Assembly (NCBI GenBank): GCA_947034885.2
Contig: OX344749.2
Coordinates: 48,389,682 to 48,453,681, forward strand
DNA from: Thuidium tamariscinum
Taxonomy: Eukaryota > Streptophyta > Bryopsida > Hypnales > Thuidiaceae
Length of the DNA: 64,000 nt
Direction: 5' to 3'
The translations under genes were made by a program, and so were the position numbers. Of the stretch, positions 9,507 through 51,798 are shown in pieces. The notes beneath the pieces were generated by a model. The model ran no database searches, was not told the origin of the DNA, and was given only the letters and a program-made list of their open reading frames with translations. Position 1 is the stretch's first letter. Each line of letters starts with the position of its first letter.

Positions 9507-10876
9507 ATGGCAAATTTCATTAAAATGGCGACATTCCAGGGTCATTGTAAGAAACATCGACCACTTTTGTAGCACTTTGCAAAATTTTTTCTTGTCCAAT
9601 GCTATAACTTTTGATTGATGAATCCAATGCCCAAACCAAAAAAACTATTTCTAGAGCTTTTGATTGCAATCATATTCTATATTTTTCAGAATTTAGAAAA
9701 AATCATTTTATATTTAAAAGTTATTTTTGTTAATTTGTCACACTTTCAAGATTAGGCATTTTTTATACAATTGATTGGTTCAAATTAATGATTTTTGGTT
9801 GAAATTTCTGTGGTATGTTTTTATAGTAGGTAGGCATGTCCCTACCAAAGGGCATCCAAAAAAACATTATTTTATGACCTCTATATTAGTGCAAACAGGT
9901 CTCCCTTGCGTGCATACTTTAGAACATTAGAAATGATTTTGAACTCATTTTTTTAGTCAAACCTCATCACTGTAAAGTCTTCTCTAATGGCCAATTTTTA
10001 GTTTTGTTCAAAATAGTTTTCCCTATTTTTTACAAATTAAAACATCAATGTATGTATTTTCTCTATTAGAATTCAATGTCGAAGATGATGTCTTAGAAAA
10101 TACATACATTGATGTTTTAATTTGTAAAAAATAGGGAAAACTATTTTGAACAAAACTAAAAATTGGCCATTTGAGAAGACTCTAGAGTGATGAGGTTTGA
10201 CTGAAAAAATGAGTTCAAAATAATTTCTAATGTTCTAAAGTATGCACGCAAGGGAGACCTGTTTGCACTAATATAGAGGTCATAAAATAATGTTTTTTTG
10301 GATGCCCTTTGGTAGGGACATGCCTACCTATTATAAAAACATACCACAGAAATTTCAACCAAAAATCATTAATTTGAACCAATCAATTGTATAAAAAATG
10401 CCTAATCTTGAAAGTGTGACAAATTAACAAAAATAACTTTTAAATATAAAATGATTTTTTCTAAATTCTGAAAAATATAGAATATGATTGCAATCAAAAG
10501 CTCTAGAAATAGTTTTTTTGGTTTGGGCATTGGATTTATCAATCAAAAGTTATAGCATTGGACAAGAACAAATTTTGCAAAGCCCTACAAAAGTGGTCGA
10601 TGTTTCTTGCAATGACCCTCCATTACTTTGGCACTTTTTACAATTCAAACCACATAATCTAAAATCAAAATCTATCATAGATTTTTAAAATCTTTATATG
10701 TCATAGATGTTCAAGACCGCTTGGTCTGAAATCAAAATATGTTGTAGATTTTTGAAATCTATAAGGGTCTTAGATGTTTAAAAATCTATACCAGTCCTAA
10801 ATGCTAGTTTTTAGTTCAAACCGCATAGTCTGAAAAATGGCCTATGGAATATCACCATTTTAATGATATTTTCCAT
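9507..10876. mobile_element. Family D element D2, split by fold-back element E1
   Basis: The left end ATGGCAAATTTCATTAAAAT starts at 9,507 and the right end TTTTAATGATATTTTCCAT finishes at 10,876. After E1 the D sequence resumes with TTACTTTGGCACTTTTTACA, matching the uninterrupted copy D4. Flanks ATAA and TTAA agree at three of four positions, consistent with a decayed 4 bp target duplication. It is non-coding. Confidence 0.7.
9539..10618. mobile_element. Family E element E1: 1,080 bp fold-back with 524 bp arms
   Basis: The element opens with GGGTCATTGTAAGAAACATC and closes with GATGTTTCTTGCAATGACCC. The two arms, 9,539-10,062 and 10,095-10,618, have the same length and are nearly perfect reverse complements around a 32 base centre. 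It is flanked by TCCA on both sides (9,535-9,538 and 10,619-10,622), a 4 bp target duplication supported by the continuous site in D4. Each arm resembles the left half of the other E copies, so E1 looks like a rearranged derivative. A transcript across it would fold into a very long hairpin, a possible small-RNA source. No protein is encoded. Confidence 0.85.
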
Positions 10877-10983
10877 TTAAGCAAAAATATTTACAAGGGA
10901 AAAAAATTTTAAATTTTCGTGAATTTATTTTTTTGACAGTTGAGTTGAAATTTGGGCTTTTGGTAGGAAGCTCCTCCCTGTAA

Positions 10984-11113
10984 GAGCAGCCCCACAGCAA
11001 CTCAGCAAAGCAACACTGTAAATGGTCTGGTCCATTGATCTTCTCTGCAGCAGGAACACCATCCATTGATTTCATTTGCTGAGTTGCTTTGCTGAGTTGC
11101 TGTGGGGCTGCTC
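10984..11113. mobile_element. 130 bp MITE with 31 bp inverted repeats and TAA duplication
   Basis: The ends GAGCAGCCCCACAGCAACTC and GAGTTGCTGTGGGGCTGCTC are exact inverted repeats, 31 bp in all. TAA flanks both sides (10,981-10,983 and 11,114-11,116). A 3 bp TWA target duplication with a short non-coding body is characteristic of Tourist/PIF-Harbinger MITEs. It lies in the 5' flank of peroxidase 2, about 800 bp before the ATG. The corresponding flank of peroxidase 3 (about 30,890) has no copy. Its near-perfect ends suggest a fairly recent insertion. Confidence 0.88.
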
Positions 11114-11116
11114 TAA

Positions 11117-11914
11117 CGAAACTCGCTTCAGTTGCGTATAAATTTTCGGATAACCATTAGAAAATACAGACAATGGGCCCGGCCATGGAGGCCGACTTTT
11201 CTGTACGTACGAAAAGAAATATAGTATTAAAACTCCGGCCGATTACTTACCTCAATTACACAGACTAGCAATCAATTGAATAAACGCACATGCAACTTCG
11301 GCAGCTGCCAACAAGCTAAGTCCCTGTAACTTAAGCAGCAGCTTGGGAGCTAACCCACTCCCTAACTTTCCCCTTGCACCCCCGTACCGCCCCTACCAAG
11401 ACTGTACAACAGGCCTTATCAGCGCCCATGCAACAAACAGTAAATTACCATGTTACTTATTAGGTTCACTTGATCCACATCATAAACCAAACAAATTCAC
11501 ACTCAAGATTTCAGAGCCTAGAATGCGGTTTGGGAATGGCTGCGGAGTGATTGCTCACACTCTAGACACACGTACTCCTAGGATTGAAGCTGAATCGAAC
11601 ATTCGACTCTGTCAATGTCCTTCCAAGACTAGAACGTCCTCACGGCACGTGCTAAGACTTGGAACTAGCTACTGGCCTCTACGACCCACTTGACTAGCTT
11701 TTGACTAAGCATCTGCAAGGCTGATGCCGAATCCTGTTGCGTACAAATACCTGGGTCAGATAGAGCTTCACGTCGACACACGCCTTTGCTCCGATCCTAA
11801 GCTCGGGTGAAGTTGCAGAGCTTCAGGGTCACAGTCAGATAGCTAGAAGCTGACGCCGATCGATTCTTTGGCAAGCTGGTCGCGTACACTCAGACTCGCA
11901 GGGAGTCAGCAGCG
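11117..11914 (+). promoter_or_regulatory. 5' flank and core promoter of peroxidase 2
   Basis: This region is conserved upstream of all three complete peroxidases (compare 30,890-31,741 and 40,826-43,220). The best core promoter candidate is a TACAAATA TATA-like box at 11,742-11,749, 166 bp before the ATG, within a block (GAATCCTGTTGCG then TACAAATACCTGGGTCA) retained in all three. Upstream lie a G-box core CACGTG (11,646-11,651) and two TTGACT W-box-like sites (11,690-11,695 and 11,701-11,706), which would fit stress-type control by bZIP/bHLH and WRKY factors. The sites are seen; the regulation is inferred. Confidence 0.55.
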
Positions 11915-49279: not shown

Positions 49280-50128
49280 GTACGTCCACACCGGCTGTTA
49301 GTTAATATTTTGGTGTTATTACAAGGGTCTCATTTGATGCAGTGACTCCAGTGAGCCGAGCCTCTTTCAGGGCAGGGTTGAAATGCGGGTAAAAATTATC
49401 TTTATTCTGCTTTAAATTGATTTTTTCCCCATCCTTGTACACCCTTTACAGCAGTGTTAGCCAATAAGAATTCCCCAAATGTTGTCAATCCTAACATCCA
49501 AGCAACAAAGTAAAATAGAATCCAACAAAGCAACTTTTGTACCACATTTTCACTTTTTGATCCACTTTCTCATTTGAGCTTCTTGGCCAATCTTGAGTAG
49601 ATCTAGGGGAGGAGAGAAGATCTTTATACTAGTGGGATAATGGTAGGTGAAACAAACCATGCATGTAGGATATGTGAATTAGGACAAAGAATAGCTCCAC
49701 CACTCATGGTTAAGTGAATATGCAGGAATTGTGATGAAGTCAAATTTCAGACCTCATTTAGACATAGTACAATATTTTTTTTCAAAAAACTTCAAACAAA
49801 GAGAAGTTGGGGAATGAAGTAAACCTTTATCTCAAAAAATCCGTTTGGGATTTCAATACTCCATCTAAAAGTTATGGACAAATTTTAGAAAGAATGTTTG
49901 AAGATGTCTAAAAAAATCTCCCTTCCACACACCCTCTTGAATTTTGTCTAAACTCTTACATGAGGCTCCAAAATCCCAAGTGGATTTTGGGAGATAAAAA
50001 TTAGATTGGTTCTACAACTTCTTCTAGTTCAAGTTTTTTACAAATTCAGCTATTACATTATGCCCAAATGAAGTCTAAAATTCAACTTTGAACATAATTC
50101 TTGCATTTTCACTTAACCATTAGTATTT

Positions 50129-50872
50129 GGGTCATTACAAGAAACACTGTCCAAAAAGCATAGCGTTTTCACAATACTCTTTTTTTTCCTTCGGGAGGGC
50201 TTCAAAATTAGAAAAATAATTTTTAAAAATAATAAAAAATATTTTTCATGTATATATCTTTAAGGAGAAGGTACCCTAGAAAGGAAAATTATAGGAAAAA
50301 TCTCTAAGTAGGAGAACTAGAAAAGTGCAAAATCTCATGAATATTGGTACTTTTACATTTTAATTTGTAAGAAATAGGAAAATAAATTTTAAAAAAAACT
50401 AAAAACTGTCCATTCTTAAAGAGTTGATTTTGATGAGATTTCACCAAAAGAAAAATCTTAGAACCATCTTCAATGTTCAAAAATTGTGCACAACGGAAAA
50501 AATTTTGCACTCATGTGGAGGACATGAAATATTAACATATTTTTGGATTTCATTCAAAAGTTATAAGTTTTACACCTATATGTATACTTGTATAGACCAT
50601 GAAAGTTTTTTTTTATAAATCATTAAATTTGGGCACTCATAACGTAGTGATTTATGTAAACTACAAATTGTGATTCTCAACAAAAATGATTTTTAAATAT
50701 AAATTGTTTTTTTTTTATTTCTGAAAAATAAGGGATCTAATAAACTTCAAGTTAGGTACGTTCAATAAAAATTTCATGTTCATTGGACTTAATCTCCAAA
50801 ATATATAGTACTCAACAAAAAAGTGGTTCTCATTGTGACATGAAATAGGATTGGTGTTTCTTGCAATGACCC
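50129..50872. mobile_element. Family E element E4, nested in H
   Basis: GGGTCATTACAAGAAACACT and GGTGTTTCTTGCAATGACCC are the ends; ATTT lies on both sides (50,125-50,128 and 50,873-50,876). The body is non-coding. Confidence 0.82.
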
Positions 50873-50987
50873 ATTTAGTAGCTACATTTAATGTGAAAAA
50901 AATTGAAAAGTGTATAAAGTGGTACAATTCTAGTAGTAGGTAATTTTCTACTTAAGTAAGTGAACCTTATTTTGATGCTTTTCTTAA

Positions 50988-51798
50988 GGGTCATTGCAAG
51001 AAACACCGGTCCTATTTGTTGTCACAATGGGAGTGACCTTTTTCTCTTGTAGTATAACTTTTGAATTTAAAAAGCTTTGACTTTGAAATTTTTAATGGAG
51101 ATAGCTAACTTCACACTACATGGTTCTTTATTTTTTCCAAATTTTGGAAAACCCTTTTTGTATTTAAGAATAATTTTGTGTTCTTGTCACAAATTGGGTG
51201 AATAAGGGTTTCACTATGTTCGTAGTAATTAGAAAGAATGCTTTTGAGTTGATATTTTGGTGGTGTATTCCTCCACTTAGTAGACTTATGAATATGGTTT
51301 AAAATATAATTTTCAATTATTTTTGGATGATGTATATGCTACATAATACATCTTAGTGGCGCACGCATTTATAAATTCTAAAAATACTTTGGCTCTAGTT
51401 TTTCTAGATGAAAGTGACCATAAGGGACTTTGAAAAAATGGCCATAATTAAAAATAATTAAAAGGTCTTTTTTTATTTTTTATGAATTAAAATTGGATCA
51501 CGGTATTTTCTGATGAAAATCGAAGTCCATCACTCCTAAGTACTGCTGCATGGACACAGTACTCCCATATCTAACTTTGACCCCATATTCGTCCACCTGT
51601 CAGATTTTTTAAACAATGTAACATATAAGATAATGTCATTCATTGGCCACATTAACTACTGACTTCAGTACACGTGTCAAAAGTACAGTACAGTGGCAGT
51701 TTGCACATAGTACCCGTAGTACTCGCAGTATTATGCGGCGAAAATGCAGTACCCATGAAAACGCTACGAAAAGTGAACAGTGTTTCTTGCAGCGACCC
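50988..51798. mobile_element. Family E element E5, nested in H
   Basis: GGGTCATTGCAAGAAACACC and GTGTTTCTTGCAGCGACCC are the ends; TTAA lies on both sides (50,984-50,987 and 51,799-51,802). The related sequence in element A near 2,600 (TTTCTTAAGGTTGTAGTC) shows one TTAA and no insert, an empty site. Confidence 0.85.

Follow-up and report, generated by a model that had tools for sequence, protein, structure and literature searches.

The presence of six segments with closely similar inverted ends in a 64-kb window of the genome of the moss Thuidium tamariscinum (contig OX344749.2, positions 48,389,682 to 48,453,681; plain coordinates below refer to this whole stretch) raises the question whether they are copies of a transposon family and, as several of them are flanked by 4-bp duplications, to which superfamily such a family could belong. 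The window sits on a 54-Mb contig of the 363-Mb host assembly (19 contigs). The six segments, here termed family E, very probably represent a high-copy, non-autonomous family of DNA transposons with terminal inverted repeats (TIRs) and 4-bp target site duplications (TSDs). As originally predicted, they share inverted ends of about 18 bp, and all 12 ends were confirmed at the predicted positions. The conserved end sequence is GGGTSATTGCAAGAAACAC, and the TIRs comprise ~19–30 bp, of which 19 bp are common to the family and up to ~30 bp are found in some subfamilies. With three or fewer mismatches, the 18-bp end matched the window 11 times, compared to 0.07 expected matches, and none of 100 shuffled windows reached this number. 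The matches correspond to 11 of the 12 ends; the remaining end at 17,778 has four mismatches. A 40-bp profile built from the 12 ends recovered all of them with E-values of 1.7e-5 or better, whereas the next best hit in the window had an E-value of 0.76. In the entire genome, the 18-bp end with up to two mismatches was found 9,417 times in forward and 9,393 times in reverse orientation (18,810 matches), compared to 3 + 3 matches of the reversed pattern. Window shuffles and the genome-wide reversed-pattern control thus rule out a chance origin of the end motif. Assuming two matching ends per copy, ~9,400 copies of 0.73 kb are estimated to occupy ~7 Mb, corresponding to close to 2% of the assembled sequence.

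Exact duplications of precisely 4 bp flank four of the six window copies, in agreement with the original prediction: TCCA at 9,539–10,618 (left duplicate 9,535–9,538, right duplicate 10,619–10,622, supported by flank comparison and empty sites), AATA at 17,778–18,838, ATTT at 50,129–50,872 and TTAA at 50,988–51,798. The predicted natural empty sites were clean for two copies when the joined flanks were aligned to related repeats. For 9,539–10,618, the repeats at 12,954–13,060 and 3,226–3,340 contain TCCA and TTCA, respectively, only once, and for 50,988–51,798, a single TTAA is present in each of the repeats at 2,550–2,680 and, on the minus strand, 7,740–7,620. An empty site for 50,129–50,872 was approximate only, with CATCT or CAACT in the place of TATTT and an adjacent 6-bp gap. 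The empty sites thus assign GGGT to the element and the 4 bp to the target.

Additional copies were analysed in stretches fetched from the host genome (L009–L054), which together comprise ~275 kb or <0.1% of the assembly. Twenty stretches extend ~10 kb inward from listed exact ends, all on contig 1, and L030 and L054 were added as candidate long elements. Pairing of neighbouring convergent ends with at most four mismatches and less than 2.5 kb apart, a rule that dropped partnerless ends and the outer elements of nests, yielded a set of 35 copies, consisting of the six window elements and 29 copies from L009–L030. Twenty young copies, located on nine contigs (C1–C8 and C10), were taken from 39 full-length matches; as they rank high in a search with a single query copy, they may not represent the whole family. 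Together with two copies in L054, 57 copies were scored. An exact 4-bp duplication was present in 42 of these, nine had one mismatch and six had more, and no exact repeat was longer, so that 4 bp prevails as duplication length beyond the window as well. In the 35-copy set, 24 duplications were exact, six had one mismatch and five had more, again without exact repeats of more than 4 bp. In 2,000 reshufflings of the right flanks, on average 1.25 and maximally 6 of the 35 copies had an exact duplication. Copies of this set in which both ends had at most two mismatches carried an exact duplication in 22 of 28 cases, and among the young copies the proportion was 18/20, the other two having one mismatch. 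The 42 exact duplications represent 36 different words; A or T occupies each of the two outer positions in 36 cases, and the two inner positions in 29 and 28 cases, respectively.

The lengths in the 35-copy set clustered at 719–765 bp (23 copies), and the remaining copies measured 389, 670, 804, 811, 1,061–1,090 (six copies), 1,260 and 2,091 bp. Twenty-three copies of 670–765 bp could be aligned end to end, although subfamilies were often only ~70% alike. In this alignment, conservation was strongest at the ends, with a majority-base frequency of 0.92 for both the initial 20 columns and the final block, compared to 0.55–0.78 inside, with the exception of 0.86 just before the right end. By inspection of pairwise comparisons, at least five subfamilies could be distinguished, and the window copies starting at 47,161, 50,129, 17,778 and 39,690 belong to four different ones. 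A search with a 735-bp query copy gave 6,989 first-look candidates; among the 40 that were scored, 39 were full-length non-self matches with 95–98% identity. The young copies differ by 1.6–3.8% from their consensus of 734 bp, which is non-coding (longest reading frame 66 codons). The original interpretation as one non-autonomous family is supported. In some places, family E copies are inserted into other family E copies, namely L049:503–1236, where the flanks are 78–79% identical to the family, and probably L028:1489–2220, where only the outer ends of the host copy were recognised; these insertions therefore occurred successively.

Family E occurs in many non-coding copies with inverted ends, empty sites and TSDs of constant length, and thus has the properties of miniature inverted-repeat transposable elements (MITEs). 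Plant MITEs are likewise non-coding, with short TIRs, thousands of copies and near-uniform length, but according to PMC10741241 they are mostly shorter than 500 bp, whereas family E has a typical length of ~734 bp and large palindromic derivatives. Several observations weigh against the interpretation as a transposon family with 4-bp TSDs. An exact 4-bp duplication was missing in 15 of the 57 scored copies (nine with one mismatch), including two of six in the window and both copies in L054, which have one and two mismatches, respectively. In the window, the flanks of 39,690–40,454 match at three of four positions (CGTC/GGTC), and those of 47,161–47,902 (CCAT/CATT) share only the 3-bp word CAT. 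The samples were non-random: 20 stretches had been anchored at exact ends on a single contig, the 20 young copies were top-ranking matches to the same query copy, and a further two stretches had been picked as candidate long elements. Finally, as neither an autonomous copy nor a transposase was found, mobilisation in trans and the superfamily have to be inferred. The left flank of 47,161–47,902 resembles another repeat, which may have removed the left duplication. That the copies are segmental duplicates of one repeat-rich block and not transposons can practically be dismissed: the window does contain several sets of peroxidase exons and many shared repeats, but the flanks of the copies differ, their 42 duplications comprise 36 words, empty sites exist and copies are found on many contigs.

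The predicted coordinates of the elements hold, whereas a nested insert in 17,778–18,838 and the palindromic nature of 9,539–10,618 had been overlooked. The copy at 17,778–18,838 is ~90% identical to an uninterrupted relative (L017:6547–7291), which lacks the segment at approximately 18,021–18,345. This insert has 31-bp inverted ends like GGGGAATTTCGTTAAAATGGCG and belongs to another inverted-repeat family, with related repeats near 3,371–3,498, 8,992–9,230 and 12,954–13,191; the copy at 9,539 is itself inserted in a repeat related to this insert. The 765-bp copy at 39,690–40,454 (subfamily D) appears unrelated to the other window copies beyond ~35 bp, yet has full-length relatives elsewhere in the genome (L009:7433–8184, 82%; L012:5639–6395, 78%). 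The 742-bp copy at 47,161–47,902 (subfamily A) is 79% identical to L017:501–1234 over its full length, and the 744-bp copy at 50,129–50,872 (subfamily B) is 83% identical to L015:501–1233 and L011:501–1232. The 811-bp copy at 50,988–51,798 has a diverged interior.

The element 9,539–10,618 has ends of the same type on both sides and matches its own inverted sequence over the full length with 96% identity. It represents a near-perfect palindrome of ~1,080 bp, here called P1, which is also present in L012, L022 and, in shortened form, in L018. A second palindromic form of similar length, P2, whose arms differ from those of P1 (~55–61% identity), comprises two elements in L030 and one in L019 with inserts. 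The arms of P1 are closest to subfamilies B and C, those of P2 to subfamily A. Compared with the ~733-bp copies, the arm of P1 extends up to position ~523, and those of P2 end between ~420 and 537. Two or more inverted duplications have thus probably taken place, and their positions may have been similar. The ~1,080-bp palindromes are secondary derivatives in which approximately the first 540 bp are present twice in head-to-head arrangement, and they were themselves mobile; exact 4-bp duplications were present in three of four P1 copies examined. In the second half of the palindrome L019:7082–9172, inspection by eye revealed a pair of similar inserts that derive from a different repeat (ACTAGCGGTT...).

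Within one full-length P1 copy, the arms are 96.6–97.8% alike, compared to 88–95% between full-length copies. The shortened copy in L018 has arms that are 95.8% alike and 89–95% identical to other P1 arms. Among the three full-length P1 copies available for this comparison, 44 of the two-state sites that split 2 versus 4 unite the arms of one copy and four do not; 31 of the 44 fall in L012. In L012:601–1679, L022:501–1582 and the window copy, paired arms carry substitutions that are absent from the other copies. This suggests either arm-to-arm conversion or repeated formation of P1 palindromes. In P2, no excess of similarity within copies was detected, as arms were 85–87% identical both within and between copies. 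Palindromes of this kind are long natural hairpins and could be a plausible source of small RNAs.

The autonomous partner that was predicted to carry the same ends around a DDE transposase was not noticed in the ~275 kb of fetched sequence (<0.1% of the assembly), which was inspected partly by eye, so that the evidence of absence is weak. In 17 of the 20 stretches, the starting end has a convergent partner, although the partner in L028 is the end of the outer element in a nest and that in L021 lies 1,260 bp away. L014, L016 and the first end of L019 have no partner end with up to four mismatches, and the reading frames of at least 100 codons in these three stretches, read by eye without profile search, were not transposase-like. 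Frames of at least 140 codons in the other stretches were inspected as well, and no transposase was noticed. Two exact 34-bp ends that converge over a span of 8.6 kb in L030 on contig 1 enclose three separate elements of 732, 1,090 and 1,072 bp, and the 8.1-kb pair in L054 encloses two elements of 1,059 and 740 bp; by eye, a transposase was seen in neither. The 2,091-bp element in L019 was rejected as an autonomous copy because it is palindromic, carries insertions of other repeats and has no frame of 100 codons.

For the mobilisation of family E, a DDE-type transposase supplied by another element would bind the TIRs, excise the element and join it to the target across a 4-bp staggered cut, with a preference for A or T at the two outer positions. 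Repair of the gaps by the host would then produce the 4-bp duplication. The identity of this transposase can only be approached by exclusion. PiggyBac and Kolobok elements target TTAA, which accounts for one of the 42 exact TSDs, arguing against both. PIF/Harbinger elements produce TSDs of 3 bp and hAT elements of 8 bp. TSDs of 7–12 bp are described for Mutator and of 2 bp (TA) for Tc1/mariner (PMC10741241). In family E, the longest exact repeat was 4 bp in 24/35 and 18/20 copies and never exceeded 4 bp, which excludes these four superfamilies. CACTA/EnSpm elements have CACTA termini and TSDs of 2–3 bp, in contrast to GGGT and 4 bp in family E. The prediction that family E is not a member of the five common plant superfamilies is supported by the duplication length. 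Chapaev TSDs of 3–4 bp overlap with those of family E in length, but Chapaev termini are invariably CAC according to PMC4079192, and family E with GGGT...ACCC lacks the required 5'-CAC...GTG-3'. TSDs of 4 bp in Ginger1 and of 4–5 bp in Ginger2 (PMC10045372), or 4–6 bp for Ginger in general (PMC10741241), are similar in length to those of family E; the TIRs of 40–270 bp and the required 5'-TG...CA-3' termini of Ginger differ. Some IS481EU elements also have ~4-bp TSDs, but the occurrence reported for IS481EU is in parabasalids, and TGT is found at the start of the related Banshee (PMC10045372).

With the other candidates excluded by their termini or by the length of their TSDs, Sola is left as the closest match. 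A Sola-like family is the leading assignment, a tentative one that is based on exclusion and not on a transposase and may well be wrong. Sola elements have 4-bp TSDs and very variable termini, are known in the moss Physcomitrella and appear to be uncommon in flowering plants (PMC10741241); a 4-bp TSD is also what family E shows (42/57 exact, none longer). Sola2 elements of slime moulds have TIRs of 12–21 bp and AT-rich 4-bp TSDs, with the pattern AWWT in Dictyostelium compared to WNNW in family E (PMC3627910). A literature search gave no support for a link between ISAzo13 (PF07592) and Sola. As a 4-bp TSD has precedents in plants, with Sola and Ginger as examples, the original view of such a TSD as unusual applies to the five common groups and was otherwise too strong.

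The alternative that fares next best, a DDE superfamily undescribed in land plants or altogether that has GGGT termini and leaves a WNNW footprint of 4 bp, is rather unlikely. Apart from Sola, no superfamily checked fits both termini and TSD, and a full-text search of the open-licence literature retrieved no paper containing the initial 16 bp of the end; on the other hand, Sola with its variable termini and 4-bp TSD is compatible with family E. The more specific proposal of a DDE superfamily new to land plants with this footprint and these termini, thousands of copies, fairly recent activity, recurrent mobile palindromes and concerted evolution of the arms in one palindromic form has a lower probability still. 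Family E is real, abundant and ordinary in kind but unassigned to a superfamily, and its being of an undescribed kind is unproven.

An origin of family E from CACTA/EnSpm elements by a shift of cleavage 4 bp outward is also improbable. The TIR core CATTGCAAGAAAC agrees at 10 of 13 positions with the plant CACTA end CACTACAAGAAAA, and the core CATTGCAAGAAA similarly resembles the motif CACTACAAGAAA of CACTA/EnSpm and Chapaev (CMC). CACTA transposases are moreover abundant in the genome: from 627 candidates, 150 PF02992 matches were scored, and long open frames are present in many of them. However, the CACTA ends seen in the host genome differ from those of family E, and the TSD of 4 bp contrasts with the 2–3 bp of CACTA. 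This end check covered two lineages at four loci of the 150 scored matches, with one recognisable end each: the L032/L033 lineage begins with CCACTACTAGAAAA at its left homology break, and the L029/L031 lineage ends in the complement of CACTACAAGGATTT, both CACTA-like. Two weak E-like ends (three and four mismatches) in L029/L031 lie inside the shared region, off its break, and do not face each other, which is the occasional occurrence expected of so common a repeat. Just past the homology break of this lineage at L029:8732, a 373-codon open frame is present at L029:8872–9990. It is very unlikely that family E is PIF/Harbinger-like and that its TSD has shifted: the first bases GGG would be in line with PIF/Harbinger ends, which often begin with GG or GGG, but the 42 exact 4-bp duplications contain no common 3-bp word.

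If its partner is Sola, family E would represent an extensive amplification of a land-plant family by Sola; a partner other than Sola would point to an unrecognised transposase. Annotators that consider no more than the five superfamilies common in plants could miss or misassign the family.

Besides the transposons, the window contains exons from several genes for class III peroxidases (PF00141) at 15,548–16,045, 34,922–35,491, 43,014–43,487, of which this one scores below the curated cut-off, and 48,462–48,953. The right flank of the family E copy at 47,161 resembles 34,836–34,909 and 14,955–15,023, which lie beside sister peroxidase exons. For the exon at 48,462, the best match with a solved structure was seed coat peroxidase (102.8 bits).

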